Assembly (NCBI GenBank): GCA_037043015.1
Contig: CM073328.1
Location: 3,025,409 to 3,089,408, forward strand
Direction of reading: 5' to 3'
DNA from: Bryum argenteum
Lineage: Eukaryota > Streptophyta > Bryopsida > Bryales > Bryaceae
Length of the DNA stretch: 64,000 nucleotides
Notes under the pieces: generated by a model
Database searches by the model: none
What the model was told of the DNA's origin: nothing
Seen by the model: only the letters and a program-made list of their open reading frames with translations
Shown here: in pieces, positions 10,685 through 51,257 of the stretch
How the letters are laid out: the number at the start of each line of letters is the position of its first letter
Numbering within the stretch: the first letter of the stretch is position 1
Made by a program: the position numbers and the translations under genes

Positions 10685-12720
10685 CTATGTTGCGGTAGGC
10701 CGGTGAATTTTATGAAAGCAACCCCGGTCGTAACATTGCCATTGGAACCCACAAAGTTCACAAAGGCTATTAGTCCTTTTTCGGCAAAAATCACATACTC
10801 TCCTGAAGGTGCTCTTTGATGGACAATGTATACGTGCAAAGTTTTTCGCCAACATCGAAAGTGACGCCTTCCATCCTAAAAAGTTGATTGTCAAAGTTTT
10901 GCACATCTCTCTCACAAATTGAAGATGTCCATATGCATCATTGGGTCGACCTCTAACTTTGAACGCTTGCTTATGAATTATCCAAAGATTTGTTATAGTT
11001 GTGTCCAATAAGAAAAAAAAAAGTCGATGCCACCATTTGTGGCTCCGGACTTGACTAGTATAATTCCCCCTCAAATGGTCCGCCACATCTACACCTCGCA
11101 TCATCGTGGTGTATTCTAAATGAATTGGTGATGTTTTCACCATTTTCTTAGATTGTCCATCGTGGTGTATTCTAAATGAATTGGTGATGTTTTCATCATT
11201 TTCTTAGATTGTCCATCGCGGCGTGGCACCTCACAAATTTTACATGGGAAAGCCATTGGCCTAGAATGAGTGGATAATAAGCACACCGGTTTCTTGTCAC
11301 GCCACATAACCGCACATATTTTTCTACTATCGTGCATTCTCCATTCTAATGCCCCTTGTGGTTGTTTTTTGAAACTAGTGGTTTCCTTCATCATTTTAGG
11401 CAAACCAATCCTATTGGTTCTTACCGTCCCCGTTGCATAAATGCCTTTCTCCAATAATTGCTCAAATAAGTCTATACTTGTGAAGAAATTATCCATGACC
11501 ACAACATGGCCCTTTCCTTCAAGTCCAACGACCATTGATTGCACTACTTTGTGTCCTTGATTTGTCCCTTCAATATCTTCATCATCTATATAAGATGAAG
11601 ACGCTCCAGCATAAACCTCAAATTTAGACACAAATTTGGATACGGAGTCCACCAAGCACCAAATTTTTAGACCCCATTTCTCCGGTATATTTGGCATATA
11701 TTGCCAAAGTGGACAATATTTGCCTTTATAGCGCACCATCATTTCATCATCCACTGTTATATATTGTCCCAATTGCCAACTTAGTCCACATTGCTCGCTA
11801 ACCCAACTCAATAGCCACCTCATTTGCCATAGTTTGTCAAAATTGGGGGAACTTCTATCTTGGCAAACTCTATTAGGATTAGTGATATGAAGGCATCTAC
11901 GTAATGCGATAAATCGGTTCCGGGAGAACATACCAGAAATCACCGAGCAATGAAATAAGTCATCTGAATTATTCCAATAATATCAAAAGTTTGGCACTTT
12001 CTTCATGCCCATATATATTGAGCAAACCATGAAGGCTTTCAATTCCCTTGGAGTGACATTCTTCCAATCATTTCCTCCCAACGTGTAAATCGCTTTATTA
12101 GTCTCCTCCCCATTTTTCTCCAACCGCTCCCTCTTCTTGTTAGCATACCTATACAAAAACTCTATTGTTCAATGATCTCAAAATAATACAATGTTCAATA
12201 ATATAATGTGATTTATAGAATTTAATTATAGAAAAGCTACTCTTGGTACATAATTATGACAAGAAGGAAAACATTCTTTCAAGCGTACATGAAACTTTGA
12301 ATAGATTGAAATGTGAGTAATTGAAAAGTACCTATTTGTTTCCTTGCAAATTTTGACAAGGATCTTTTTTGGCCAAAATATATTCCAAAGTTGCATCAAA
12401 CTCGGAATCTTCTCAAATATTGATCTTGATTCAGTTGGCACATCCATAAACTCAATAGGTTCTGGTTTCAAAGTATGGAAAAACGTGCCCCAATGGTCCT
12501 CACTGTACCGCATTTTTATGTCTATGGCTCTCTTTGCCTTTGCATTGCCCCTCATTGGGCCACCATTATGCTGTAAGATATCGTCTCTCCCAATATGTGT
12601 GGTCCTGAAAGCTGGCTTCGCCTTTTTTGTGCGGGTGGTGGACGTTCCCGCCTTTTCTACATCAACAACAAAGTGCAACAACAGCTTATGGGTGAGTGCT
12701 CTAAAATGGAGCACGTCCAA
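10685..12720 (-). pseudogene. piggyBac-like transposase (DDE), broken by a tandem duplication and a stop codon
   Basis: On the minus strand the pieces read in order: an N-terminal part (12720-12334), an apparent intron (about 12333-12150, with GTAC... donor and ...TATAG acceptor), a middle part, and a C-terminal part. Diagnostic piggyBac sequence is present: ITVDDEMMVRYKGK, a VVMDNFFTSIDLFE block with the second catalytic Asp, MMRGVDVADHLR, and the KWWHRLFFFLLD block. The C-terminus has a Cys-rich zinc finger (CDFCRKR...CELCG...C...H). Lesions are a TGA after KKVPNF, and a 56-bp duplication (11105-11216) that shifts the frame between the catalytic core and the C-terminal block. No ATG begins the N-terminal part. 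PiggyBac transposases are cut-and-paste enzymes that insert at TTAA. They are common in animals but, to my knowledge, rare in land plants. Confidence 0.8.
11105..11216. repeat. 56-bp direct tandem duplication inside the transposase
   Basis: 11105-11160 is repeated as 11161-11216 with one or two differences ('...gttttcaccatt' against '...gttttcatcatt'). 56 is not a multiple of three, so the second copy reads in another frame. The protein block KTSPIHLEYTTM therefore appears once in each frame. Confidence 0.95.
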
Positions 12721-13404
12721 TTATGGAGCTCTAGTAATCTTCACTCATGATAGCCTCCCTATCCAACAATACCATGTACTGTGAGCATACATTATAGGGT
12801 GCCATTTTAGGGCACCATTTTAGAAACACCTATAAATACAACTTCAAAAATTCATAAGTAATTGTAGAAAAGTCCAAAAATGATGATTCCTTTTCCGCTA
12901 TCTTTCCACTTACTTTCACCATGCAAGAAAATTGATTGCACTTTTAACTTCGTTATAGATTTACGGTGATGAAAATTGAGCAATTATTGAGCACCTTAGA
13001 AGAAGAAGAAGAAGAACACCAGACCCGTAAGGGTTGGCGTGAATAAAGTGTCCGTTCGACCTACCCTTGATGATATGCCCACAGGACCTAACAACAGTGG
13101 TATAGGACTACTAACCCCTCTCAGGGTGGACACTACATGAAAAAAAAAAAATGACCCAGAACTAGTGAGCTGTTATGTTTGTATAAAAGTAAAGGTTTGG
13201 TTTTGTTGGTCGTCACATTGTTGACATACCACGTTGTTTGGAAGAGACATGGATGTGTAGTAGCGGTGGTCCGGGTTCGATTCCCGTTTAACTCGTTTGA
13301 GCATCGTTTACAATCATCTGGCGCTATAGAGCTAGTGGGCAGGAAATTCCAACGGCTTGGGCCCCCTGCATTGTGACAAGGTTGCTATTCTAATATATCA
13401 CTTC
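12721..13404. other. Intergenic DNA between transposase and LINE, with a tRNA-like T-arm
   Basis: At 12800-12830 'agggtgccattttagggcaccattttag' contains a short direct and inverted repeat, possibly near a transposon end. 13005-13018 is a short GAA run. A B-box/T-arm-like sequence lies at 13266-13288. No protein gene seen. Confidence 0.4.
13266..13288 (+). promoter_or_regulatory. tRNA T-arm-like / RNA polymerase III B-box-like sequence
   Basis: 'ccgggttcgattcccg' fits a B-box (GGTTCGATTCC) with a 4-bp stem around the TTCGATT loop. A D-arm-like stretch, 'aacaacagtggtatagga', lies 170 bp upstream, too far for a tRNA gene. A poly(T) run follows at 13411. It may be the relic of a tRNA-derived SINE, or chance. 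Confidence 0.25.
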
Positions 13405-13405
13405 T

Positions 13406-13410
<5 letters not shown>

Positions 13411-13444
<34 letters not shown>
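13411..13444 (-). repeat. Poly(A) tail of the retrotransposon (poly-T on plus strand)
   Basis: An unbroken run of more than 30 T lies about 17 bases beyond the stop of the last LINE ORF fragment. The 3' UTR of this element is therefore extremely short. Confidence 0.85.
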
Positions 13445-13446
<2 letters not shown>

Positions 13447-13460
13447 TTTATATAATATAT

Positions 13461-13973
13461 CTATGGTGGTTGTATGTCTGCTGGTAATGTTTCTCCATTT
13501 TCTAGTTTTCTCTTGTGTAGTATTATAGACATGGCATGGTGTATAGCAATTGTGTTTATTTCTCTGAATGTATTTTTTATGAGTGTCTTTGGTATTTTGA
13601 GTTTGGTTTTGAGGATTTTCATAGATGGAATGTATGTGGATGCTCTGGCACGTGCTGTTATTACTATTAGTGGTTCAACTATCCATCCTTTGTTAATAAT
13701 ATCGTTGATGAGAGGTTGGTATTTTTGCATCTTTCTCTCAATGGTGTCTGGTGAGAATCTGTCATTATAGTATGTAAATTCTATAAATTGAACCTTTAAA
13801 TTAATGTTGGGAGATGTAGGGGGGTTTGATTGGTAGGGTAATCCTTGTATACATAGTAGGTCCGGTTTTAGTCGTGCATTACATTGGCATCTTTGTTGTG
13901 CACAAGTACATGGTAATAGCCATGGTGGGACTGTATTTTCTGGTGGTTTATCATTACATGTGCCCGCATTCAT
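13461..13973 (-). pseudogene. LINE C-terminal restriction-like endonuclease (PD-(D/E)XK-type) domain fragment
   Basis: 170 codons starting NAGTCNDKPPENTVPPWLLP. A Cys-rich stretch (CTCAQQRCQCNARL) leads into KPDLLCIQG, then IEFTYYNDRF, then ERKMQKYQPLI and PLIVITA. The R/K-P-D motif followed by an acidic residue in a beta strand and a Lys-rich helix is what R2-type and Dualen-type restriction-like endonucleases show after a zinc-finger motif. The PD codons are at 13860-13865. The domain joins the RNase H fragment through HNKAVWEIKKLIVSSKHSRC, which reads across 13974-14040 after a frameshift. The family call is mine from motif memory. The alternative is an uncharacterised C-terminal domain. 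Confidence 0.55.
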
Positions 13974-14008
13974 GAGGGTATAACATCTCGAGTGTTTTGA
14001 TGAGACTA

Positions 14009-14940
14009 TTAGTTTTTTAATTTCCCATACTGCTTTATTGTGTCTTTTTTGTTACGAGCGCATGTATATGGTGTTGCTTGCATTTTAACAAAGACATGTA
14101 GCCACGTGTCTGGATCTTGGGAGTCACATACCGAACATGTGATTGATGGATATAGTTCTCTGCCAAAAAATAATTGTTTTCTAGCGTTGCCCATGTATTG
14201 ACCGTGTCTTAGTTTAAGCAAGCATGTTTTTTGGGAGTCTGTTACTTGTTTATTAGTCCAAAACTCATTTGATAGTTTATCATCTATGTCAGTGTTACTT
14301 ATCCATTTATCGATATTGGGGAAGTTTCTAGCAATGTCTGTTAAGTTGTTTTCTTTGTCGTGTTTAATAATGTGTTTTTCAAGGAATCTTATAGGACCTT
14401 TATCTGGCGTTTCATCCATAGAGTGCCACCAGTCTCTTTGAAAGTAATATGGTGTAGAATGTGCGAATTCATGTGGTAAAGTTGCATTGTGGTAATCTTT
14501 GTCTCTACCTTCTTTGGCTAGTTTGTCGGCTTTTTCGTTACCATCTATATTTGCATGAGCTCGTACTTTGTATAGTGATGTAGGTTGTGTTCTTTGTTGA
14601 AGAAGTGTAACTATATCTTGTAGAATGGTTTTGTCTGGGTGGTTATTATGTTGGGTAGGGTGTTTGAGTTGTGTTTGGATATTATATAGACCATTCAAAC
14701 AATCTGTGAAAATGTGTGCAGGTTCATCAGGGTATTTGGAGGAAATTATTTGAAGGGTCGTGTATATTGCCATTATTTCAGCCCTAAATATGTTTTGTAA
14801 ACCTGGGAGTCTTACAGCTTGTTCGATGTTTTTGGATTCATTATATATTCCATATCCTGCAATTTCACGGGTCCAGTGGGTGCCCATATTTTGTGGTGGG
14901 AGAAATGAGCCGTCAGTATAATAGCAGTATTGTGGTAGGA
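14009..14940 (-). pseudogene. LINE RNase H domain plus Cys/His motif
   Basis: All four acidic catalytic residues of RNase H are present: YYTDGSF (Asp codon at 14912-14914), IFRAEIMAI, IFTDCLNGL, and VRAHANIDGNEKADKLAKEG with the HxxxxGNexAD signature. The first motif reads straight into the following frame (GTHWTREIAGYG). RNase H removes the RNA strand of the RNA:DNA hybrid. Downstream, LKLRHGQYMGNARKQLFFG leads to CSVCDSQDPDTWLHVFVKC, a C-x2-C...H...C motif of the kind that precedes LINE C-terminal endonucleases. The frame breaks soon after this, around 14060. Confidence 0.8.
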
Positions 14941-15312
14941 ATTTAGGTTGTGTTTCGTTTCTGAAACTAGGAATTGATGGTATATTATGGTATGTAACTG
15001 AGTTTTCAGTTGGATATATGAGTTTGTTCCATTCTTTGCTTTTGTTGACTTGTATATTTGGTTGTGTTGAAGGGGCAATTTGTATGTATGGTTGGGGGAT
15101 TTGGAGTTTATTAAAGATTGTGGTTAAGGCGGTGATTTGTGTATTATTTCCTACAGTGGTGGTTTTGTGATGTACACAAAATATGTGGAGAGCGGAAGGT
15201 TCTATCCGTGGTTTGGTAAATTCTGGTGGTTTTGTTGGTTCTTCATATATTATTGTATCTGCAGGTATGTATGTAACAACATGTGTGTCTGGATAGGGGC
15301 CTTTATGTGGTG

Positions 15313-16912
15313 TTAGGTTATGGTACCAATTGTGGTCGGGGTGATTATTATGGTGATATTGTTTGGATTGTTTTGTGCGGCAAGTCTAGCCCAATGTATA
15401 GCTTTTTGGGTATCTATTTTGTTATGTGGGTGGGCATATCCAATTCCTTTCCATTTGTAAGAAAATGCTTGCCCTATAGCTCCAAAAATTTTGTCTCTTT
15501 TGAATGGTGAGTAAAATTTATTTATTTGAGTTGAGCATGTTATTGGTGAGGAGAAATATGAGTGTGTTATATTAAACGATGTTATGATGTGGTCGAGTAA
15601 TATTTTTGGCAAGGAGTAGTGTGCAAGTTTAAGTGGGTCGGTTTTTGGGATTCTGTATTTGTATCTTTGGTATAGCCATACAATTTACTTTTGAACGATT
15701 GTGTGGGAGGTGTTAATCCATGTGGTAGATCTTTTGCTCTAGAGTATTGATTCCATAGCCAATTTAGTCTCATTATAGGTATGGTTATGATGTGTTTTCC
15801 TGTTATATCATAAAGATGTGCTACATCATCTTTTATTTGTATGGTGTTTTGGTTGGTGTTAATATCTTTTGAAGGGTTACATTCGTTTACACTAATATTT
15901 ATAAGGGGGACACGCATTGTTGGAAGTATGTGTCTTGTGTCAAAAATTGTTCTTCTCGCAAAAAATGGGTATCTATTATGTTTTTATAATATGTATGTTG
16001 TTTTGTGGTGTAATATTGAGTAAGCAGTGAGGTGTTGTGTTGTATGGTTAGTGGAATGTTTACTGGGAAGAGGTCTTTTTGTGGTATCCATTTGATATAT
16101 GTGATATCATTTGGTAATTTCCATTGGCATAGGTAAGTGTTGTATGTTTTTAAAATTTTGTATTTGTCTATTGTTTTGATTTGTTTATGGTCTAATATTG
16201 TATGTATGGGGTATGTGGATGGGTTATTGATGATTCTAATTGGTGGTTTCGGATAAGGGGGGTGTAGCGGTGTTGGTAGGTGTATAGGGTTTGTACCGTG
16301 GTTAGGTACAATATAATGGTTATGTGTTCTATATTCATGTTTTAGAGTTCTTGGTGCAGTGTGTTCGATGCATGGATTTAGGCATTGTTGGTTACATGTA
16401 GGATAGCAAAAGAGTTGTTGGGCTGTATGTAGCGCTTGTTTTATTACTTTTGTTGGTGTTTGATAATATGTTTTGAATTCATCATGTGACATTAGATTTA
16501 GACCATTTGGCAGTGTTAAGTGTTTTATCTCATATATGTTTTGAAGTAATAATTTGTTGAGATGTTTATGATTTTGTTTAGGGGTGAGATGTGGTAATAG
16601 TTCTGAAGACAAGTTTAGCCACATGTGTTCAAGGGGTGTGGCTTCAAGTGGAAAGTTTCCTATTGTACTTCTCAAGTGGGCACCTCCACATCGTTTGATA
16701 AGGCAGAGTGTTCTTGTTGTGGGTGATCTTAAACAGTCTTGTTGTTTAATTCTGGGAATCTCTTTTGCTCCACCGTATTTAGCAAGTATAAAATGTGTAA
16801 GACCTTTATAGATTATTCCCAATTTTCCTGTATCGTTGAGAGCATTGCGTAGTTGTTCACCAATGCATCTAAGATAGGCGTTTTTTAATGAGAATGCTTC
16901 TATACCGAACAT
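15313..16912 (-). pseudogene. LINE region between RT and RNase H, in three frames
   Basis: Three overlapping pieces (15899-16912, 15582-15917, 15313-15612) form one decayed stretch. The first begins MFGIEAFSLKNAYLRCIGEQLRNALND and contains RTLCLIKRCGGAHLRS and PLEHMWLNLSSELLPHL, which looks like the RT thumb and connection region. It is very rich in Thr, His, Asn and Ile, as elsewhere in this element, because of strong A/T bias. No separate domain recognised. Confidence 0.5.
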
Positions 16913-17272
16913 ATCGTGTGGGAGTTGGGTGATTACGTTGGGGGTGCAATTTGGTAGCCCGCATATTTTCTTTTGTATTGCTATAATTTTTTTGTCTAAT
17001 TTTTTAATAGTGGGTAATGAGTAAGGTACCGCATAAAAACTATATGCAATACCTGCTCTTATAACAAATGTCTACCATACTAACTTTCTTTTTCTGATGG
17101 TTTGACAATTTGCTAGTTGGTTGCATTGTTTAATCAGTTTGGTGGTCGTTGTATGCGTTTGTATTTTCCAATTTAGTGATGGAACAAGTTGTATGCCTAA
17201 ATATACATATGGCTCATTTTGATGTAGAACAGGAATTGGTTGATTTATTTATGATATATTTTGCGGCTTGTA

Positions 17273-18103
17273 TTAGTCTTTGAAAACTATTTGGTTTGAT
17301 TTAGATTTGTTTGGGCATCCGGTAATTGCGCATTTTGGAATTCCTAGGTCCATTCCAGCCCATTCGCAGAATTTGTCCATTTTGTTGAGTTGTCTTTTTA
17401 GTGAGGGGAGTTTGCTTGTTATGATTGCAAGATCATCTGCGTATGCTGCTGTATTAATTGTAGTTTTTGAGGTGTTCAAGGTGTAACCATATTTTCCTCG
17501 TTGTAACCATCTTAAAAGTGGTTCTAAAAAGATAAGGAAGAGATATGGGCTCAGTGTGTCCCCTTGTATTGTGCCTCTTTGTATGGGTATTTTTTGTGTC
17601 TGGCCAAAGTAATCACCAGTAAAAATAGTATTAGATTGTGAGTAGATATCTCCTACTAGTATTACCGCATCCTCAGGATATCCTAAATCTTTCATGATGG
17701 CTAGTAGTCGGGCGTGATCTATTGAACCAAATGCATTTTTAAAATCTATATAGAGTAAATATATGTCTTGTGTTGTTAATTGTGCATCTTCTAAAGCTGC
17801 TATTAGTAGTTGTAATTGTCTAGATGTGCATCTTTCGGCACGAAATCCTTCTTGGCTATCATGTAGAATTTGGTGTTTTTCTCCATATGCTGAGAGTATC
17901 GATGTTAGTGTACTTGTAAAAAATTTGTATATAGTGTTGGCTAGAGCTATAGGCCTATGATTCGATAATTGAGATGGGTCGCCTTTTTTGTATAATAGTA
18001 TTGTGAGGCTTATTTTCCAGGGATGTCGAATTTGTTTTTGTTTATAACAATGTTTGAAGAATAGGAATAAGATGCGGTGAAAGTTTGTAGGCGTGTTCTT
18101 CAA
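17273..18103 (-). pseudogene. LINE reverse transcriptase domain
   Basis: 276 codons carrying the non-LTR RT blocks in order: ISLTILLYKKGDPSQLSNHRPIAL, QEGFRAERCTSRQL, YLLYIDFKNAFGSIDH with the first catalytic Asp, IPIQRGTIQGDTLSPYLFLIF, and AYADDLAIIT with the YADD box at 17432-17443. These residues bind the two metal ions for polymerisation during target-primed reverse transcription. The domain core is uninterrupted, but the flanks on both sides are frameshifted. Confidence 0.92.
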
Positions 18104-18119
18104 GATAGAGTTAGGTATT

Positions 18120-19141
18120 CTATCCGGTCCCAGGGTTTTGTTTTTGCGAGGTTTTTAAGCGTAAATCGAAAGTTTCTTGGTCAAAATATGTATGTAGCGG
18201 AGTTTGCGGATGTCCTCTTTTATCTATTACAAAGCCTTCTAGGTCATGCCATGGATATTGTCTAACTCCGCATGTGCATTCTGGGGGTGGTCCGGTAGGT
18301 AATAACATGTTGGAACAGTGGGTTTGTTAATAGATGATTGTTGTATGTAAATTTCATTAAGAATGTCTTGTGGGCTCGTTAGTATGTTGTTGTTATTGCG
18401 ATCCGTGATGCGATCTAATGGTGGTGTTTCGTGGTTTTTAAATACTTTATTGTTTATCTTTTTAGGACTTATTTCATATAAGAAACAGTATTTGGATATA
18501 GCTTTTTTTATGCATTCTTTTGTGTATTTTAATGTGATTTTTCTTGCTTTTTGTTTTTGCGATCTTGGCTAATGTTCTTAAGTCATTTATCCATGCTTGA
18601 TAAATAGGTCGTCGGATGGCGGTGGTGGGATCTTGACATAGGTGTGATTATTTAATTCATTGATAATTGAGTGTGATCTCCATTGTTGTGTATTTTTGTG
18701 GTATATATTGCTTTTCCGATTAAATGATATGTTCTTCATGCTTTTTCCATGTTTTTGGAATTTTCGTGGTAAAATAACCACCTTGTTTTGAAATTCTTTC
18801 ATTGAGTGTGGGTATGGGTGGTGCGCTGGCGTATTTTCTACACTTCGATATTTTTGAGTGATTTCATCTACATGTAAGAAAGACGCTAGTTTCCATTAAT
18901 CGAGATTTAGGTGTTCGTGTGATAATACGGCGTTCAAGTCATTTAGTTGTAAAGCGTTGTTTTCATGGAAGATTGTATTAAATTTATCTAAATTATCTTG
19001 CGGTATAGGGTTAAGTATTCTAATCGGTTTGGAGGTAGGTGGTATTGGATGGCGTGCAATGAATGAGTTTGTTTTGGGGGATGTGTAGTCTGATGGGTGT
19101 GTGGTCGGAGTTAAGATTGGTTTTACGTAATTGTGGTACAT
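18120..19141 (-). pseudogene. LINE linker between endonuclease and RT, frameshifted
   Basis: Short pieces in different frames (18896-19141, 18587-18802, 18120-18308) have the same A/T-biased composition as the flanking LINE domains. No catalytic motif is visible. They bridge the endonuclease and the RT. Confidence 0.45.
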
Positions 19142-19311
19142 GTATATAAATTGTGATTTTGTGTTTTGATATAAAAACCGTCTATTAGACTTATATGTGT
19201 GTAGTTAGAACCACCTTGTCAGAGTAGTTTGTGTTTGTTGGGACATATGTTAGTGATAAGCTATCGATATATGTTTTCCAAATAAAATCATCCTCTTGTG
19301 GTGGTGTGGTA

Positions 19312-19850
19312 TTATCTTTCGTTTTGTCGTCCTATTAAAGCTATGTCTCTATTGAAGTCTCCACATAGAATAAGAGTGTGGTTAGGATGTGTGTTGATTT
19401 GTGTTGTAATGGTTTGTTGTATAGTTGGGATTAGTTCGATGTCTTCATGGTGTGATGGCATATATAGGTGTATTAATAGCCATGGTTGTAGTGGGTGGTT
19501 TTTTATGTGTATAATTTGTAAATAAGGTGATATTTTTAGCCGGGTTGGGATTTTGGTGATATTCCCTGGGTATGCATATTTGTGGTTTATTAGTGTTAGT
19601 AGTCCTCCTCTAGCAGGTGTATAAGGAATTCGTTGTTGAATGCATCTGGTCAGTGCGTGAGTATTATTAAATATTAGTTTGTAATTTGGGAATAAGTTTT
19701 GTATGTATTTTATAGACTTGGTGGCGATTAGTTTAGTCTCTTGAATGGTGATAATGCCCGGGGTTTGCAAGGCAAGTTCTTCTAAGCTAGGTAGTGCGAT
19801 TTTTAGTGTTCTTTGCGTTAAATGTGATAATACTTAGTTTGTTGATTAAC
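19312..19850 (-). pseudogene. LINE APE-type endonuclease domain
   Basis: The domain begins as KLSIITFNAKNTK (about 19850) and after a one-base shift runs on as IITIQETKL, with the catalytic Glu of exonuclease-endonuclease-phosphatase enzymes, then GGLLTLI, IHIKNHPLQPWLLIHLYMPSHHED, and LILCGDFNRD with the GDFN box. Such enzymes nick the target DNA strand to prime reverse transcription. The usual C-terminal SDH block was not found, so the domain is probably truncated or frameshifted beyond 19312. Confidence 0.8.
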
Positions 19851-20147
19851 ATTGTGTATATTTGGTTGGGGTAGTGGTAGGATATGAGTCAATGGAGGAG
19901 GGTGTGTGTATTCATCTAGAGGATCATAGATTTTTAATGTTTCCTCAAGAAGATTATTTGGTAGAAAAGGAAATTTATGTTTTAACGTATGTATTGATGG
20001 TGCGTTTTGTGTCTGGTGTATAAAATCATATAATTCTTTGTGTATACTAGGGGAGGGGTTTATTAATTTTTGGTTATCCGTGATAAATTGTAGATAGGGG
20101 TGTTTCATGTGGATGTGTCTTTCGGGTGGGTTTGGTAGTGTAGACAT
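19818..20147 (-). pseudogene. LINE ORF fragment between 2A region and endonuclease
   Basis: A 109-codon piece starting MSTLPNPPERHIHMKHPYLQ, rich in Pro and His. It begins in another frame within a few bases of the stop of the 2A-bearing ORF (20153) and runs into the endonuclease. It therefore looks like the continuation of the same polyprotein after one frameshift. No domain recognised. Confidence 0.45.
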
Positions 20148-20152
20148 CTTGT

Positions 20153-21745
20153 CTAGTAATCTAGCATCCGTCTGGTTGATTCGTTTGTTAGTAGATGTTC
20201 ACATGAATTTATATTAGGGCTTATAGTTGTTATTAGCGCAAATAGTATGTGTGCTAAAGGGTAATTTCTTATTTGGTTTAGATATGTATTTAAATGTGGG
20301 AAGTCTCTAATAGTGTTTTGATGGTTTTGGTGATCTTGTTTTAGAATGGGAGAGAAATTTTTTGCAAGATTTTGGTATTCGGGTTGGAGTTTGATTGTAC
20401 ATGTAATAAAGTATGTTTTGTATCTTCGTTTGTGAGCCGGTGGGTGAGTTTCTAGCACGTTTGGCATGGGACCAGGGTTTGTTTCAATATCCCCACATTT
20501 TAATAAATGGTGCGTATCATTGTATTTATAATAGTATGTGTTGAGAGTCTTTGTGGGCACATATGTGGAGACGGTGTTAACAATAGATATTTTGAAAAGC
20601 TTTGTTTTGGTCGGAAAATATATAACTTTAAAGAATAGGTCTTCTAAAAATAGGTTGGTGTTTGATTCCAAATAATTGGGGTCTCTTGTTACTATCTTGA
20701 ATATTTCTATTTCTAGTATGTTTGTTTTTGGTTTATATTCCGGAAATGTTTTATATCTATGTTTATGCGTGGTTGAACGAATGTCAAGCATATTTTGCAT
20801 AGGGTCCCGATTTGATTCTATATCTTTGCATGTTAATAGGATTGTTTTGTTATCATATAAAAGGTAGTAGAATTTTGGATTTTTACGTTTATTTTTATAT
20901 GTAAAGTATTTTTTTATAGTAGTGTTGAGGGTCGGTTGTGTAGAGTAATATGTTATATATTTTGTTATGTATGTAAAAGGATATTCATTATTACTATAAT
21001 TTCTATTCACTTTCTTTGTTTTTTCTTTCCCTCCTATTACCTTTACTTTCTGTCTTCTATTTTCTTCTTTTATGTTGGTATTGTCTAGATTTACTATGTC
21101 GGTATTATTTTGTTTTAATATGTCGGCATTTTCTTGTTTTTCTATGTCGGTATTTTCTTGTTTAACTATGTCGGTATTTTTTTGATTTAGTATGTTGGTA
21201 TTTTTTTGATTTACTATGTCGGAATTTTTTTGTTTTACTATATCGGTATTTTCTTGTTTTACTATGTCGGTATTTTTTTGTTTTATTATGTCCGCATTTT
21301 CTTGTTTTTCTATGTCGGTATTTTCTTGTTTTACTATGTTGGTATTTTTTTGATTTATTATGTTGGTAATTTTTTGATTTACTATGTCGGTATTTTTTTG
21401 TTTTACTATATCGGTATTTTCTTGTTTTACTCTGTCGGTATTTTTTTGTTTTATTATGTCCGCATTTTCTTGTTTTACTATGTCGGTATTTTTTAGATTT
21501 ATTATGTCGGTATTTTCTTGTTTTACTATGTCGGTATTTTTTTGTTTTATTATGTCCGCATTTTCTTGTTTTACTATGTCGGTATTTTTTAGATTTATTA
21601 TGTCGGTATTTTTTTGTTTTACTATATCGGTATTTTCTTGTTTTACTATGTCGGTATTTTTTTGTTTTATTATGTCCGCATTTTCTTGCTTTTCTATGTC
21701 GGTATTTTTTAGATTTATTATGTCGGTATTTTCTAGATTTATCAT
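20153..21745 (-). CDS. LINE N-terminal polyprotein ORF: 24-bp repeat domain plus duplicated 2A module
   Basis: A 530-codon ORF. Residues 1 to about 220 are nearly pure tandem octapeptides of the form NTDIVKQE / NADIIKQK / NTDIINLK. A basic spacer follows (RRQKVKVIGGKEKTKKVNR). Then come two related modules. The first has YYLLYDNKTILLTCKDIESN and MLDIRSTTHKHRYKT. The second has YYYKYNDTHHLLKCGDIETN ending PGP, then VLETHPPAHKRRYKT. The second carries a canonical 2A motif. 2A peptides make the ribosome skip one peptide bond between Gly and Pro, so this element probably releases its N-terminal repeat domain co-translationally. The ORF starts inside the repeats because an in-frame TGA lies just upstream. 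The preceding coding part is in the other frame (21162-22073). Confidence 0.7.
   Translation of the reverse strand: MINLENTDIINLKNTDIEKQENADIIKQKNTDIVKQENTDIVKQKNTDIINLKNTDIVKQENADIIKQKNTDIVKQENTDIINLKNTDIVKQENADIIKQKNTDRVKQENTDIVKQKNTDIVNQKITNIINQKNTNIVKQENTDIEKQENADIIKQKNTDIVKQENTDIVKQKNSDIVNQKNTNILNQKNTDIVKQENTDIEKQENADILKQNNTDIVNLDNTNIKEENRRQKVKVIGGKEKTKKVNRNYSNNEYPFTYITKYITYYSTQPTLNTTIKKYFTYKNKRKNPKFYYLLYDNKTILLTCKDIESNRDPMQNMLDIRSTTHKHRYKTFPEYKPKTNILEIEIFKIVTRDPNYLESNTNLFLEDLFFKVIYFPTKTKLFKISIVNTVSTYVPTKTLNTYYYKYNDTHHLLKCGDIETNPGPMPNVLETHPPAHKRRYKTYFITCTIKLQPEYQNLAKNFSPILKQDHQNHQNTIRDFPHLNTYLNQIRNYPLAHILFALITTISPNINSCEHLLTNESTRRMLDY
20468..20506 (-). other. 2A 'stop-carry-on' peptide coding sequence (intact motif)
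   Basis: Codons read LLKCGDIETNPGP, then M-P. The last eight residues fit the 2A consensus D-(V/I)-E-x-N-P-G-P exactly, and the upstream LL-K-C-G is typical of 2A peptides. Skipping would occur between the Gly (20471-20473) and the final Pro (20468-20470). Confidence 0.88.
20801..20839 (-). other. Decayed second 2A-like motif
   Basis: LLTCKDIESNRDP sits at the same place in the first copy of the duplicated module. The DIExN part is kept, but the NPGP end reads NRDP. At DNA level the difference is small and looks like two compensating one-base indels in a C/G run, so the frame is kept. Predicted inactive. Confidence 0.75.
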
Positions 21746-21815
21746 GTCGGTATTTTTTAGATTTACTGTGTCGGTATTTTCTAGATTTACTGTGTCGGTA
21801 TTTTCTATTTTTAGT
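21075..21815. repeat. 24-bp coding minisatellite, about 30 copies
   Basis: The unit on the plus strand is 'tatgtcggtattttcttgtttt' plus two bases, with common variants (ttttttgttttat, gtccgcattttc, ttagattta). The period is 24 bp, a multiple of three, and units lack stops in several frames on both strands. Variants follow a higher-order order rather than a random mix, which suggests blocks of several units were duplicated. Confidence 0.95.
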
Positions 21816-22073
21816 AATTTTTTGTTTCACTTTCTCTATCACACTCTTGCTTCTCAATCCTTCAGCTTCACCAGTTCCTTCTTTCAGCGCCAACTGCTCC
21901 ATAGCTACAAACCCCAGCCAGAATGTCTTCGGCGTTTCCTCGATTGCTGCTACATTCTTCTTCCTCTTGCTGCCGCTTCCTCCGGATCCTTCCTGGTTTC
22001 TTTTCGTATGTTGAGTTTCGATTTGTGTTACTCTGCAATCGTCATCCGCTTCCGCCATATTTGTGTCCAGCAT
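21162..22073 (-). CDS. LINE 5' ORF entering the minisatellite in the alternative frame
   Basis: A 303-codon ORF starting MLDTNMAEADDDCRV; the second Met (MAEADDD) is an equally good start. The first 85 residues are non-repetitive: TQIETQHTKRNQEGSGGSGSKRKKN, then TFWLGFVAMEQLALKEG. The rest is a basic octapeptide repeat (KYRHSKSK, KCGHNKTK). This repeat is the same DNA that encodes NTDIVKQE in the frame of the 2A ORF, which is +1 relative to this one. Either the upstream part was shifted by a mutation, or the element uses frameshifting inside the repeat. I cannot tell which. No known domain. Confidence 0.5.
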   Translation of the reverse strand: MLDTNMAEADDDCRVTQIETQHTKRNQEGSGGSGSKRKKNVAAIEETPKTFWLGFVAMEQLALKEGTGEAEGLRSKSVIEKVKQKITKNRKYRHSKSRKYRHSKSKKYRHDKSRKYRHNKSKKYRHRKARKCGHNKTKKYRHSKTRKYRYSKTKKYRHNKSKKYRHSKTRKCGHNKTKKYRHSKTRKYRHNKSKKYRHSKTRKCGHNKTKKYRQSKTRKYRYSKTKKYRHSKSKNYQHNKSKKYQHSKTRKYRHRKTRKCGHNKTKKYRHSKTRKYRYSKTKKFRHSKSKKYQHTKSKKYRHS

Positions 22074-22100
22074 TTTCCCCGGTGTACTTTCTCATAATAG

Positions 22101-22952
22101 CCGCGCGTGTCTGACTTTCCCCCTGTGCGCCATCTCGCAAATCCAATTTTTCTTTGTTTTTTCTCGTATTTTCTTTCAACGATTTGGTCTCATAATCGAT
22201 CAAGCTATTCTCGCTTCAATCTGCTCCTTCTCACGCGTGCATAGGGGTCGATATACTGATTGTAAGCTCTTGACCTATTCAGCACATACAATCTTTGCTA
22301 CTAGTTTCTTTTTCAATTCAATGAGCAAAAACGAGTTTAGGGTTAGGTTCTTACCCGAAAGTCAGATCTAGTGTTTCTACGGCCGTCTCTTCTGCAAGTG
22401 CTGTCGTCGCTCTTCTCTCTTGCAAACGAATCACCAATGTCGCGCGGCGGCGAAAAAAAATTTCTCAAATCGGATCTGCGCCTAAAGTCGCGTCTAGGTT
22501 CCATATCTGGCCTGCAGCGATTTCAGCACTCGAAATCCTAAGCTCCTGGTAGTTTCAAGCCTTTCAATGTTGGATCTAAGCTCTATTTCCCAGCCCGCTT
22601 TCAGATCTACAATAGCAACTCCAACAACTCAAACCCTCATTCCACCACTTTCACTACCTACGCTTTGTGTGCATTCGTGGTGCGGTTAGATCACTCCTAA
22701 CACAAATCGCACACACGGGTTACGATTGCAGCATTGCTACGACACCAGATCTGGTCCTATCCGCTCTCTACTCCTCTCTCTCCATTTCCCTACAATCCCC
22801 CCATGTGGTTACTACTCAACTACTTTGAGCACCTTACTATATACTAAGACATGAAAATACTCACATTTGTGCTTCGAGGATTTCTAGCATACTTTGTACT
22901 TCATGCAATTGATTACTACTTCGTTTCAATTCTGAATGAACCTACAAGAATG
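22101..22952. other. Likely LINE 5' UTR and pre-insertion DNA; no gene seen
   Basis: 22100-22800 is more C/T-rich than its surroundings and may include the 5' UTR of the retrotransposon. The exact 5' border was not found, and no protein-coding gene is supported. Confidence 0.35.
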
Positions 22953-38701: not shown

Positions 38702-40171
38702 TTAAGGCATAAGATGGGTTTAGTTAGTACTTCGAAAACTAACAAACTAACTTTCTACAAATCATCACAAAACACTAGAAAAGAAAAGTATGACTAGAAA
38801 ACACTCTAAAACCACCACTATCAAATTAACTAATGTCATTGAAGTTCAGTCTGGCCCATTCTTAGAACTGATTGACAACGATTCTCCTATTCTCTTGGCA
38901 TCATTTCCACTGATTGTGCTAATACACATGCTTGGTATACAACAATTCTAGATGCCAGAATCTTAACCCTTAATTGTCACCGGTGACCAAACTAGTCACC
39001 AAGGTCATTTTTTTTGCTTTTGGGGTCTGACACAGTGGTAGGGTGCAAATCGCTGGTGCACCACCCATACAATGACAACCTCTTTTAATTAATATAACAT
39101 GTGAAATCACCAAACAGTTTGCAAGTGCACTCCAGAGTCATATATGGTGTAACACTAAAGAATCAAGATACGAAATGTTATACTCATATGAAGAATACCC
39201 ATGATTTACAGTATGGAAGAAGGTATTGTGATTATTCTTCGAATTACCTTTCTGAACAACGAAGTCAAGTCAGTAAAGAAATGAGTGGAAAGTAGAAACA
39301 GTTGCTATCAATCGAACATGCAACTCTCCGTGACTTCCGCAATTATAATGTGAAAGAGTATGAATGAAAATGTAAACATGTGCTCATCGAGTCTGTACAA
39401 TCTCTGTTCATAGTCACAATCACTTTGAAGTACATGATGCCGTGTAATGATCCGCAAAGTTTGGGAACTTACAGAGTCTAAAGATTCATGAAGTTGAATT
39501 CCTTGTCTACAGTGAGTCAGATTATCTCGGCATCAATGATGTCACTTCTCCACAAATGATTCATAGAGTCTGCAAGCTAGGTACCAAAGTTGAAAGATCC
39601 AAGCATCTCTTGGATAAAGTAACAGTAACTGAAATGGACTCCTTGGTCTTATCCATCTTCAACTTCACATAAGAAGAGATGGAGTAATTGAGAAGTTGCA
39701 GTTGCAGAGACATTGCATGTTTTACAAGCTTCTTCTTCGTCTTGCTCACTTACGAAGGTAAGCTACATTCTATCGATCACCATTCTTGAATGTTCTTAGA
39801 GAAACCTCAAACTTGTAAGCAACGTTGAGTTTGTTAGATCGATGTGTTCTTGTGTTGAACAGAATCACTTGTATGGATTCTTTAAGCTTCATGATTGAGT
39901 TGACATTTACTATTTATGTATATTGTAAACGTAAACTAATTAGTTTTAGAACAACGTTGAAGTCAGATGAATGACTGTGCGTTCTATTCAAGATGTTGTA
40001 AATACAAGATATTAACACAATACAAGGAGTTGTAAACCTTTCATGTAAGTGCATTAAAGCACTCCAGTTGTGAGGCGACACAGAAACAAAACGAATTGAA
40101 CACTGTTATGTTGCCAACATGTATGCAAAATTGATTAGCATTCAACTTGTTATATTGGATAGGAGTGGACT
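38702..40171. other. Intergenic DNA and 5' flank of the S-protein gene
   Basis: TTAACCCTTAATTGTCACCGG at 38963 looks like a lone TTAA-type terminus followed by a small palindrome (ggtgac/gtcacc). No gene seen up to the S-protein start. Confidence 0.4.
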
Positions 40172-40591
40172 ATGGCTACAAAGTGGGGCTTGAGCTTGGT
40201 GTTGTTGCTAGTCCTGGCAACAACGATGGAAACAGAAGCTTTTCCATGGGGCATAAAGAAGATGTCGGTGCGCGTTATCAACACACTCCCAGGAGTCTTG
40301 GAGGTTCATTGTTTCACAAGAACCAAGGATCTCGGAGATCAATTTCTTCAACCTGGAGCGGAGTACTACTTCAACTTCAGGACCAATTTTTGGGGCTCTA
40401 ATAAATATTATTGTCGCTTCGTCAACGGGCCACATCTCTACAACCAGTTCGCAGTCTGGCTAGGCCCTGGATTCTTGTGGATCAAGCACATGGATTGTGA
40501 GCAGTGTGTGTGGAAGGTTGCCTTCAATGGCTTCTATCGTGCCCAAGAGGGAAAAGACTTCGAGCTCGTTCGACCTTGGCTCACCTATTAA
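40172..40591 (+). CDS. S-protein homologue (SPH / self-incompatibility S1 family), complete
   Basis: 139 residues in one exon. Residues 1-23 form a good signal peptide (basic start, LVLLLVLATT core, small residues before Phe24), so the product is secreted. The mature part has the family pattern: VRVINTLPGVLEVHC, DLGDQFLQPGAEYYFNFRTNFWGS, YYCRF, then MDCEQCVW near the end. The four cysteines (47, 81, 109, 112) match the spacing expected for two disulphides. In poppy such proteins act as stigma self-incompatibility ligands. In plants without pollen-stigma recognition the role is unknown, possibly cell-cell or defence signalling. An upstream ATG in another frame is ignored because it lacks a signal peptide. 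The C-terminal third is nearly identical to the fragment at 2-148. Confidence 0.92.
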   Translation: MATKWGLSLVLLLVLATTMETEAFPWGIKKMSVRVINTLPGVLEVHCFTRTKDLGDQFLQPGAEYYFNFRTNFWGSNKYYCRFVNGPHLYNQFAVWLGPGFLWIKHMDCEQCVWKVAFNGFYRAQEGKDFELVRPWLTY

Positions 40592-47877: not shown

Positions 47878-49094
47878 TTCGCTGACTTCTTCTTTATAGA
47901 TGGTTCACGTCTTCGAGATTCTCCTCTCTTTTTCTGGAAGTGTTTTTTTTTGTATTTTTGAGCAGCAAGGGTCTGTTGCATTTGCTTGAATTGAACCACC
48001 ATCAGAAGTCAGAAATTTAGGTATGTTCGAGAGGTTTTGTATCAAGAATGTACCATACTGCTGGTGAAGAAGCGGATTGTTGTAAGATGGGCTCGCCGTG
48101 TAAGTGTACCATTCACAAGCGTCCTCTACTGAATCCATCCATCATTCAAGTTGTGAAGAAAACAATTGTACCTCTGAATCTCTCAACTGAAGGAATGCTC
48201 TTCAAGAATATGCCATGAGGGATGTGAGAAAGTGGGAAAGGTGCTAAAGTACTTGTTGAGAACAATGTGATGTGTGCAATCCCTGTAGAAATCCTCACAT
48301 TTCAATTTGTTGTTTGAGGTTGGTTTGCATACGAAAATTGCACGCATGCATGAAGCTTCAAAAGTCCATGCAGGCGTGAGGTTTTTGTTTAACACATCAT
48401 ATTTCTAAGTGAGTGATGAATTCATTATAGGATGTGCAAAAATAGTAGAAAATGGCATAACTCTGTGAGTGATGAAGCTTGTAAAAAAATGTTACATGTT
48501 TGTGACCTCCTGAGCTGGTCGTGTACCTCAAGAATACATTGTGTCCTTTGTAGCTACACACAAATTTGTTCACTTTTGCACCTTCCGAACTCTATGAGTG
48601 AATCAAGTATTTGCCCTTGGATAAGTGTCATTCACGATATATAACTTAAGTGTCATTCAATATTTCATACTTGTACGATCATGTCACTTTTGAGACCTCT
48701 TGTATCGCTCCTCGACGCTGAAACGGCCTTCAGAGCAGGGAGGGTGAGCTCGGAAGTACCGGGGAGATTCGTCCACCACTGCTTTCACTGCAAATGAACG
48801 GCGATGGCGGGACCTCGCTTTCCCCTCCGTCCTTCGCTTGCCTGGCTCGTGCAGTGCAATATGTAGGAACAAGGCGCCTCTCGGCCCGTTAGCTTTTTCA
48901 ACGACTTTTCAAAATACTTTTTGGGCAAGTTCCCTGAATAAATAAGCAATCCCGCAATGGGGCTGAAGACCAAACAGACAAATGGTTATCCGCCACTTGG
49001 ACCGCCAACTTATCCACTTTCACCATCGTCTCTCTCCTTCTCAGCCTGCTCCCTTCACCACCTTCAATTGCTCTAGCAATTCATTCCTGCCGCA
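47878..49094. other. Intergenic DNA between TIM22-like and cpSRP43 genes
   Basis: No gene supported. Short ORFs on both strands lack domains. The last 150 bp are pyrimidine-rich and form the likely cpSRP43 promoter and leader. Confidence 0.45.
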
Positions 49095-51257
49095 ATGGCC
49101 GCCCTGCGAGCAGCACCCATCGTAGGCGCTGCACGGCTCACTTCAACGGCACCTTGCTCCTCCTTCTCTTCCTCCATTTCTAGAATCACCTGCTTCAATT
49201 CCAGGTTGAAAGGTGAGAGTTTGGGGTGCTCGTGGAGGGCTCCTGTGGTCGTGGTCCGGGCTCAGGTGGAGAAAAGCTCGGTGCAGGAGCGGAGCGTGGA
49301 GGAGAAGGACCGCGACTTGGCTGCCACCAGCTACTTTCAGGAACAGGTCATCGAAGAACCTGCGGAGGTGAAAGAAGAAGAAGCGCCTGAGGAGCCTGCG
49401 GAGGTGAATTATGGGTTTGGAAACTCGGGTGGTGAGGAAGATTATGGTGAAGTGAACAAGATTCTGGCGAGTCGGGTTTTTGAGGGCGAGACGCAGTACT
49501 TGATTGAGTGGAGGGATGATCATCCTGAGAGCTGGGAGCCCCCTGAAAATATCGCCAGGTTTGTGTTTCCCCCCTTCCTCTTCGAAATGCGAGCGAATCT
49601 CTGAACGATTTTTACAGCTTTGTATGAGGTTGGACCGATACGAAAATTTAGGGTTGGAAGAGAATGTGAAGCTTGTAATTGTGAAATTTAGCGCCCACCG
49701 ACGCTTAGTTTCAAGATTTACATCGGTACAATCGTGTCGAATCTTTCTTCAGAGGAGGGTTTATAAATGTAAGTCCATCATTTCGATCATGAGGATATTA
49801 AGCACCAAATTACGAGGTGATACCGTTTCATGAAGTTTTGAATTTTCGAGCGGGCCTGGACCGTAAGCCGGTCTTACAACGGAAGATTGCAATATGGAGT
49901 CTTTGATTTGTTTTTCTGTTTGACCTATTTCGAAGTATCAAATCGGAAAAGTGGTTCGATGGAAATTTTATCGTTTGGTCACCCGTATGGAATCAATCGA
50001 TTAGGGTTGAACGCAAGGAATCCATTCTGCGGCTTTCAGTTTAGTAAATCTCCTCCATTTACAAGAGCATCCCATCATTTGGGTCAATTTATGATTTGTT
50101 GATGTACTTGAGTCTCGATTACGAGTACTGCTTCTTCGATCGAATCATGCACCTCATGTCTAACAAGCCTCGCGTTTGATCGACCTCTGCATTGTGATTA
50201 GTTCGTCTTCCAGTATGCCAAGCTTAGAAAATTTGTTGCAACAGTTTCCTGTAAAAAAAAAATCAGTTTCCTCTGATTAGATTACACACTTCTGCAAGAG
50301 AGTGAAACCTGCCTGTAATTTGATACTTAGTGAGGGTCTATCAGGATCATCCTCCTACATCAAGTCTCTGAGATCACGGGCATGAGTATTGAATGTTCTA
50401 TGCCTTTCTTGCAGGGACGTAGTCTCCGAATTCGAGACGCCATGGTGGCAAGCAGCGAAGAAGGCAGAGGACGCAAAGCTGAAAGAGCTCCTAGAGTACG
50501 AGGGCCGCGACGTAAACTCCATAGACGAGAACAAACGAACTGCGCTCTTCTTCGCTGCAGGATTAGGCTCCGAGAGGTGCGTCCGGATGTTGCTGGAAGA
50601 GGGAGCAGACGTGCACTGGCAAGACAAGGACGGCTACACTGCGTTGCACATCGCCGCCGGCTATGTGCACAACAGTGTTGTGCGAGCTTTGCTGGAAGCC
50701 GGAGCAAACCCTGAGGAAGAAGACTTGAAAGGGCGATCGCCTTTGCTTCTTGCGCAAGAGCTTCTGGAGCGGACGCCAAGGAATAATCCCATGCAGTTCG
50801 CTCGACGAATGGCCCTCGACCAGGTCCTTTACCCTTCCCCTTCCATCAGAATCATCAGTTTGTTTCCATAGCTGGTTCATAACGTTCCAATCCATGCTCT
50901 CAGGTTGTGAAGCTGCTGGACGAGGCGATCTACGATGACGTAGAAGTGGAGAAGATCCTCGAAAAACGTATCGACGCAAAGGGAGTAACCGAGTACTTAG
51001 TGAAATGGAGCGACGACTCCGAGGATAGCTGGGAACCAGCCATGAACATCGGCGAGGATCTGATCAAAGATTACGAGGAAGGACTAGAATACGGCATCGC
51101 CGAACGAATAGTTGAGAAGCGACAAGTGGATGGCAAGCTTGAGTACCTTGTGCAGTGGGCTGATTCCGCGGAGGATTCGTGGGAGCCTCCTGAAAACATC
51201 GCTGATGAAATCATCGCCGAGTTCGAGAGTCAGTCTAAAGTTGAAAGTTCAGCGTGA
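49095..51257 (+). CDS. CPSRP43: cpSRP43, chloroplast signal recognition particle 43 kDa subunit
   Basis: Three exons (49095-49558, 50415-50823, 50904-51257) give 408 residues. The first 55 or so are a Ser/Arg-rich transit peptide. Chromodomain 1 follows an acidic linker ([19 protein letters not shown], ending [10 protein letters not shown]). Exon 2 encodes the ankyrin repeats ([56 protein letters not shown]). Exon 3 carries chromodomains 2 and 3 ([15 protein letters not shown]...YLVKWSD, and [21 protein letters not shown]). In the stroma cpSRP43 binds the DPLG-type motif of light-harvesting chlorophyll proteins through its ankyrin repeats. It pairs with cpSRP54 through chromodomain 2 and delivers cargo to Alb3. 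It is slightly longer than the 373-residue Arabidopsis protein. The Arabidopsis gene (CAO), as I recall, lacks introns, whereas this one has two that separate the domains. Confidence 0.97.

Follow-up and report, generated by a model that had tools for sequence, protein, structure and literature searches.

A conserved 2A (StopGo)-type peptide in ORF2 of a common Dualen-like LINE of the moss Bryum argenteum and its predicted role in releasing the leader

The window analysed here is a stretch of 64,000 nucleotides from the moss Bryum argenteum (assembly GCA_037043015.1, contig CM073328.1, positions 3,025,409 to 3,089,408 of the forward strand). Its minus strand harbours a copy of a LINE, whose parts are given below in the order in which the element reads.

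21735..22049, minus strand: ORF1 remnant, matching residues 1-107 of the ORF1 reading of copy L032 with 75% identity
20153..21826, minus strand: open frame of 557 codons that takes in the repeat array, the intact 2A with a degenerate 2A-like site ahead of it, and the beginning of the post-2A region
21086..21823, minus strand: upstream leader, an array of NTDIVKQE-like repeats of ~8 residues each, from translations (limits by eye, approximate)
20801..20839, minus strand: degenerate upstream 2A-like sequence LLTCKDIESNRDP, read in the window, with a similar relic at other loci
20468..20506, minus strand: 2A (StopGo) peptide LLKCG-DIETNPGP, from translation and family conservation
20468-20491, minus strand: its core octapeptide DIETNPGP, predicted to be broken between its final G and P
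19836..20467, minus strand: post-2A region, from the 2A to the endonuclease, frame-broken, predicted to be mostly helical in a relative
19126..19809, minus strand: APE-type endonuclease (EN), frame-broken, from Pfam Exo_endo_phos matches below the curated cut-off and an AlphaFold model of the relative P0082
17273..18154, minus strand: reverse transcriptase (RT), Pfam RVT_1 E=1e-28, nearest solved chains R2 proteins
15313..15684, minus strand: PCIF1-like block, Pfam PCIF1_WW 3e-7, 30.6 bits against a cut-off of 31.1
14507..14929, minus strand: RNase H, Pfam RNase_H E=3.5e-14, residues 153-293 of ORF 14009-15385
13776..13868, minus strand: KPDLLCIQGLP...FIEF motif of the restriction-like endonuclease type, after a zinc knuckle and RHN, with motif and order as in relatives
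13411..13444, minus strand: poly(A) tail of the element, a plus-strand poly-T (limits approximate)

The remainder of ORF1 found no match in window positions 13001-22600. The AlphaFold model of P0082 (mean pLDDT 68.9) places an APE-type nuclease fold, as in exonuclease III, APE1 and the LINE-1 EN, behind a helical region; the 50 matches listed for it are nuclease-fold proteins or full-length LINE-1 proteins, none of which assigns the post-2A region. Compared with solved proteins, the RT is closest to R2 (2.7e-22, a further R2 chain at 8.4e-21), with LINE-1 at 1.3e-11. The PCIF1_WW-like block sits between RT and RNase H. It scores above the cut-off in copy L032 (32.6 bits) and below it in copy L031 (26.3 bits), and precomputed Pfam annotation gives the domain in 19 of 58 wider relatives. 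PCIF1 is a cap m6A methyltransferase.

Three other features of the window lie outside the element. A DDE_Tnp_1_7-type transposase, which we take to be piggyBac-like, occupies two overlapping frames at 10685-11982 (minus strand), a small protein of the plant self-incompatibility S1 family is encoded at 40163-40588 (plus strand), and a chromodomain-ankyrin gene is found at 49077-51254. The hand-joined product of the latter is 89% identical to its best match, 79% identical to the Physcomitrium and Ceratodon proteins (across 85% of the query), 60-66% identical to those of liverworts and 61% to those of Selaginella and Diphasiastrum, values that point to a moss host.

Read from 20506 down to 20468 on the minus strand, the letters translate as LLKCGDIETNPGP. 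The octapeptide DIETNPGP conforms to the 2A/StopGo core (D/G/C/N)(V/I)ExNPGP, and the ~6 residues ahead of it conform to the expected context, for example an L-rich stretch ending in (A/S/C)G before the D: HHLLKCG in the window, LFLLLCG in other subfamilies. This context was judged by eye against the classes in the accessible text of PMC12846837. Both other minus-strand frames are interrupted by stops at the site. The window copy itself is a dead, frame-broken relic, because its 2A frame does not run through into the endonuclease, with breaks near 20160, between ~19810 and 19836 and further down, and because its ORF1 match is limited to residues 1-107. The degenerate site upstream has counterparts in 13 of the 24 loci L001-L024, with NRDP in 12 of them and NWDP in L014. 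This inactive-looking first 2A (NRDP) is kept in the subfamily of the window, including its long-frame copy.

That long-frame copy shows what the window has lost. Locus L002 is 98% identical to the window copy over a 112-residue test piece, and L031, its wider stretch, has one frame of 2286 codons that comprises the leader, the degenerate 2A-like site, the 2A, the post-2A region, EN, RT and the PCIF1-like block; RNase H-like residues come next, in another frame of that copy. ORF1 is separate and ends before the ORF2 frame opens (L031, L033). Among 31 distinct 2A sites with a downstream EN hallmark, the two lie in the same frame in 24, of which 19 run without break or stop up to the EN and 5 contain stops, and in different frames in the other 7. 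A sequence-only reading of this DNA had proposed an intact 2A at 20468..20506, in an ORF upstream of the endonuclease, that separates an N-terminal repeat domain from EN-RT. The peptide itself is borne out by its translation, its open frame and the genome count given below. Its position upstream of the endonuclease also stands, in a single frame in the near-identical L031 and in a broken one in the window copy. The repeat domain applies to the window's subfamily, where the repeat array does lie upstream, whereas other subfamilies have different, K/N-rich leaders.

As for the type of element, the window order is APE, RT, PCIF1-like block, RNase H, CCHC, RHN and KPDLLCIQGLP...FIEF. CCHC, RHN or RHD, and RPD follow in the same order in 10 of 11 relatives scanned; in the remaining one, P0028, the CCHC was not found by pattern. 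The Dualen/RandI group of non-LTR retrotransposons is reportedly known from Chlamydomonas. The moss element shares with it an APE at the front, RT, RNase H, CCHC and a PD..E endonuclease motif at the end, and thus has both the APE-type endonuclease and the RNase H domain expected of Dualen. According to the accessible part of PMC4640811, the Dualen group encodes both an APE and a restriction-like endonuclease (RLE). Judged by domain order and motifs rather than by an RT tree, the element has a Dualen-like, dual-endonuclease layout. For the C-terminal endonuclease, alignments with Haematococcus P0020 and with solved chains were not significant, and the agreement lies in motif and order. The moss host and this domain layout support both parts of the earlier proposal of a Dualen-like element in a plant. 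The best named proteins among the wider relatives come from Haematococcus and comprise Josephin, RT and RNase H, plus EN in P0015, whereas a profile check found no Josephin match in the moss element, which has the helical post-2A region instead. 2A-bearing LINEs of the L1Tc/CR1/L2 type have only an APE and an I/CR1/L2-type RT; the C-terminal PD..E motif and the R2-like RT similarity of the moss element would speak against membership in that type.

The family is common in the host. The DNA pattern for D[VI]ExNPGP has 167 exact matches in the 258.8-Mb assembly (89 forward, 78 reverse), and the reversed-pattern control has 0. Motif places were listed for the first 100 of the 167, a list that is complete for contigs C1-C4. 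With the 112-residue query that contains the motif, all 150 scored candidates matched (best 150 of 287). As a query that avoids selecting for the motif we used the 187 residues downstream of the 2A, which gave 150 matches among the best 150 of 296 candidates scored; 81 of these rows fall on C1-C4, and 76 remained after 5 whose match began after residue 4 were dropped. The exact motif stands at the expected place in 61 of the 76 copies, contrary to the possibility, raised in the sequence-only reading, that no other copy conserves it. The other 15 have a relic there, with 1-2 residues changed or a stop, accompanied by a frame shift in 2. The share of exact motifs is 13/19 in copies with open frames of <500 codons, 31/38 at 500-1000 and 17/19 at >1000. 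Subfamilies with as little as 40-58% identity in the domain after the motif have the motif in common.

Outside this genome, the motif is frequent among close relatives and rarer beyond them. Among 36 closer relatives (ENA or JGI contigs, P0001 included), 21 have the exact motif, 7 have a predicted start at MPN or MPD, which is what comes after NPGP in others, and 4 begin further downstream. Another 4 carry a variant or relic: GDIHPNPGP in P0071, NPDP in P0074, DIQPNPGP in P0090 and NLGP in P0092. With H as the third core residue, the case of P0071, the motif is active according to the accessible text of PMC12846837. The wider relatives number 58 proteins, and the expanded motif is present in 5 and absent from the other 53, so not every member of the wider group has a 2A. 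Two metagenome proteins carry it, P0001, with 64% identity across one third of the query, and P0007 (GIEPNPGP). In the green alga Haematococcus lacustris, 3 of 5 named proteins have a 2A before the Josephin domain, GDIEENPGP twice and GDIEPNPGP once. None of the 120 cpSRP43 proteins listed contains the motif.

One might object that the octapeptide belonged to a single source element and is found in its copies by chance or mere copying. Within a subfamily the motif is indeed inherited by descent. Nevertheless, it is common to the diverged subfamilies, to relatives from other samples and to algal elements, and the codons differ where DNA was seen, which leaves this explanation next to no probability. 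A chance motif was likewise rejected on the 167 matches against 0 in the control, the copy survey with the motif-free query and the off-frame control described next.

Selection acts on the peptide. There were 68 sites with the exact motif, 56 of them distinct, and from these we chose 15 representatives that are <80% identical over the next 67 residues and free of stops. G at -1 is present in 15/15, C at -2 in 13/15 and L at -5 in 14/15, none of them demanded by the search, and conservation drops upstream of -6. Up to four synonymous codons are used at core positions, where the residues were demanded by the search and codon statistics are therefore conditioned on the motif. Between diverged subfamilies, the amino acids of the 2A are constant and the codons differ. 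In ungapped comparisons of 1033 pairs from 55 distinct sites, pN/pS in frame versus one frame off was 0.36 versus 0.96 at -6..-1, 0.60 versus 0.88 at -14..-7, 0.28 versus 1.57 at +8..+37 and 0.89 versus 0.99 at -30..-15. An aligned analysis (29 sites, 90 pairs) gave dN/dS of 0.11-0.17 downstream and 0.46 upstream (~33 alignable codons per pair); in the 2A itself synonymous change is saturated, with pS 0.76 and pN 0.08. On the strength of these pN/pS and dN/dS results, translation very likely passes through the motif. The leader is of low complexity and, by the same measures, under weak constraint at the protein level. Its A/C-rich strand is poor in stops by composition, and therefore a long open leader alone proves little.

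Two other ways of reading the conserved peptide have to be weighed here. ORF2 could start at the Met of PMPN, leaving the motif in an untranslated or uORF leader, as Met directly follows NPGP in 14/15 representatives and the 7 relatives predicted from MPN or MPD might suggest. However, in such a leader the peptide would not stay constant at the protein level when synonymous change has reached saturation, and one group of relatives shares ~20-45 protein residues just upstream of the 2A. On peptide conservation and these shared residues, a start at this Met only was judged very unlikely. Alternatively, the peptide might serve in protein binding or targeting, with no recoding. Several subfamilies have a hydrophobic stretch ahead of the motif, and 2A-like N-terminal signals can double as signal sequences (available part of PMC4981915). 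Yet the conserved positions are those of StopGo, NPG|P included, and most of the stacked modules read (see below) keep their own motif or a close relic; a role of this kind is highly improbable.

Given the motif, its frame, its conservation and the selection on its protein sequence, we consider it highly probable that this is a functional-type 2A in ORF2 of a common moss Dualen-like LINE, where skipping would release the leader and a separate enzyme polyprotein would follow. At NPG|P, ribosomes on ORF2 would leave out the Gly-Pro bond, let go of the variable K/N-rich leader and continue, with no stop codon involved, with a separate polyprotein beginning Pro-Met-Pro-Asn, predicted to comprise the post-2A region, APE, RT, the PCIF1-like block, RNase H and the C-terminal endonuclease motif. 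That skipping occurs, and that its purpose is to free the enzyme from a fast-changing leader, is what we infer from the sequences. The motif could instead act mainly as a stall or termination signal or skip in part, yielding mostly leader and little enzyme as a form of dosage control, or mixed products. Small quantities of enzyme probably suffice for LINEs, and residue -3 varies (K, L, Q and others). Some natural 2As apparently terminate translation instead of resuming it (available excerpts of PMC11512398), and some are partial (PMC4981915, as far as its text was accessible). On the other hand, core and context match active classes, although sequence alone cannot give efficiency, and we regard this alternative as unlikely. 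In natural StopGo sequences, following the accessible text of PMC12846837, L-rich upstream classes ending in (A/S/C)G are associated with D at p12 and with S at p15. The moss LFLLLCG-DIESNPGP fits this L-rich class fully, and HHLLKCG-DIETNPGP of the window and WLLLAAG-DIEENPGP of Haematococcus fit it except for T or E at the variable p15.

Several loci harbour more than one 2A. Among the 100 places listed, nine pairs of exact motifs lie on the same strand <6 kb apart, in frame in 6/6 cases on C1-C4 and 2/3 on C5, and two further pairs, at L022 (C6) and L023/L034 (C10), are out of frame. In total, 8/11 pairs are in frame, several of them related copies and not independent events. In-frame coherence as proof that stacked 2As are translated together is weakened by this count. 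Seven pairs were read in DNA. Four have an uninterrupted single frame (L057/L058, L065, L066, L067), the L024 pair is in frame with 15 stops between, and in the L022 and L023 pairs the two 2As are in different frames. In L065 (G000:C5:2175400-2180000), truncated EN modules are stacked within a single very long frame that also includes a (TH)n stretch and several 2A-like sites, among them an additional DIETNLGP relic. Upstream of it, at C5:2174315, a further module with the same open-frame length of 2489 codons is preceded by GDIEPNTGP (L083).

A separate observation concerns a GC-rich DNA motif of 21 nt, GCTCGGCCTCCCGGCCTCGCC, found ~160-950 nt upstream of the next 2A in L022, L026, L049, L065 and others. 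It has 129 genome matches with <=1 mismatch (reversed control 0) and is absent from the window with up to 4 substitutions allowed. Across 22 sites read, its DNA is nearly invariant and the reading frame changes, on which ground the recurrent ARPPGLA peptide was rejected as a protein repeat. It resembles a signal that acts at the RNA or DNA level in this LINE group.

It is tempting to speculate that the 2A is an insulator that lets the 5' end of the LINE evolve by stacking and swapping of modules, and an old trait of green-lineage Dualen-like elements. Each module would bring its own 2A, so that whatever is fused in frame upstream, be it junk, a repeat array or an older, truncated module, would be cut off in translation and the enzyme polyprotein released intact despite the fused sequence. 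This reading would explain the in-frame double or multiple 2As, the inactive-looking first 2A and the hypervariable leaders. Because three pairs are out of frame, we hold it to be possible but rather doubtful; these pairs may be decayed copies, or evidence against shielding.

A native 2A repertoire in moss and green-algal LINEs would be the first use in plants that we found. It would mean that StopGo is naturally encountered by the ribosomes of land plants, and it provides a collection of 2A variants native to plants. With the stacked modules, the tolerance of retrotransposons to rapid change of the 5' end can be tested. In the literature covered, which does not include the taxon list of Odon et al. 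2013, we found no earlier report of a 2A from a plant or a Dualen element, and priority is not proven.

Viral StopGo/2A peptides, of picornaviruses and others, have the same core octapeptide and the L-rich (A/S/C)G upstream class, as far as the partly accessible sources go. Several 2As in one polyprotein also occur in picornaviruses (available excerpts of PMC11512398). In the accessible text of PMC12846837, nearly 10,000 viral StopGo sequences surveyed gave no evidence of natural use by plant viruses, and 2A works in plant cells. In contrast to the viral cases, the 2A described here belongs to a cellular mobile element of a plant host. In animal and trypanosome LINEs, the 2A is on the N-terminal side of the endonuclease; the elements of Odon 2013 are reportedly from animals. 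As described in the accessible part of PMC4981915, LINEs with a 2A occur in trypanosomes and in animals such as sea urchin, and their APE-type elements (L1Tc; those of Odon et al. 2013) have the same D(V/I)ExNPGP in the LINE polyprotein. Compared with these, the element studied here differs in its moss host, its green-alga relatives, its Dualen-like look and its separate ORF1.
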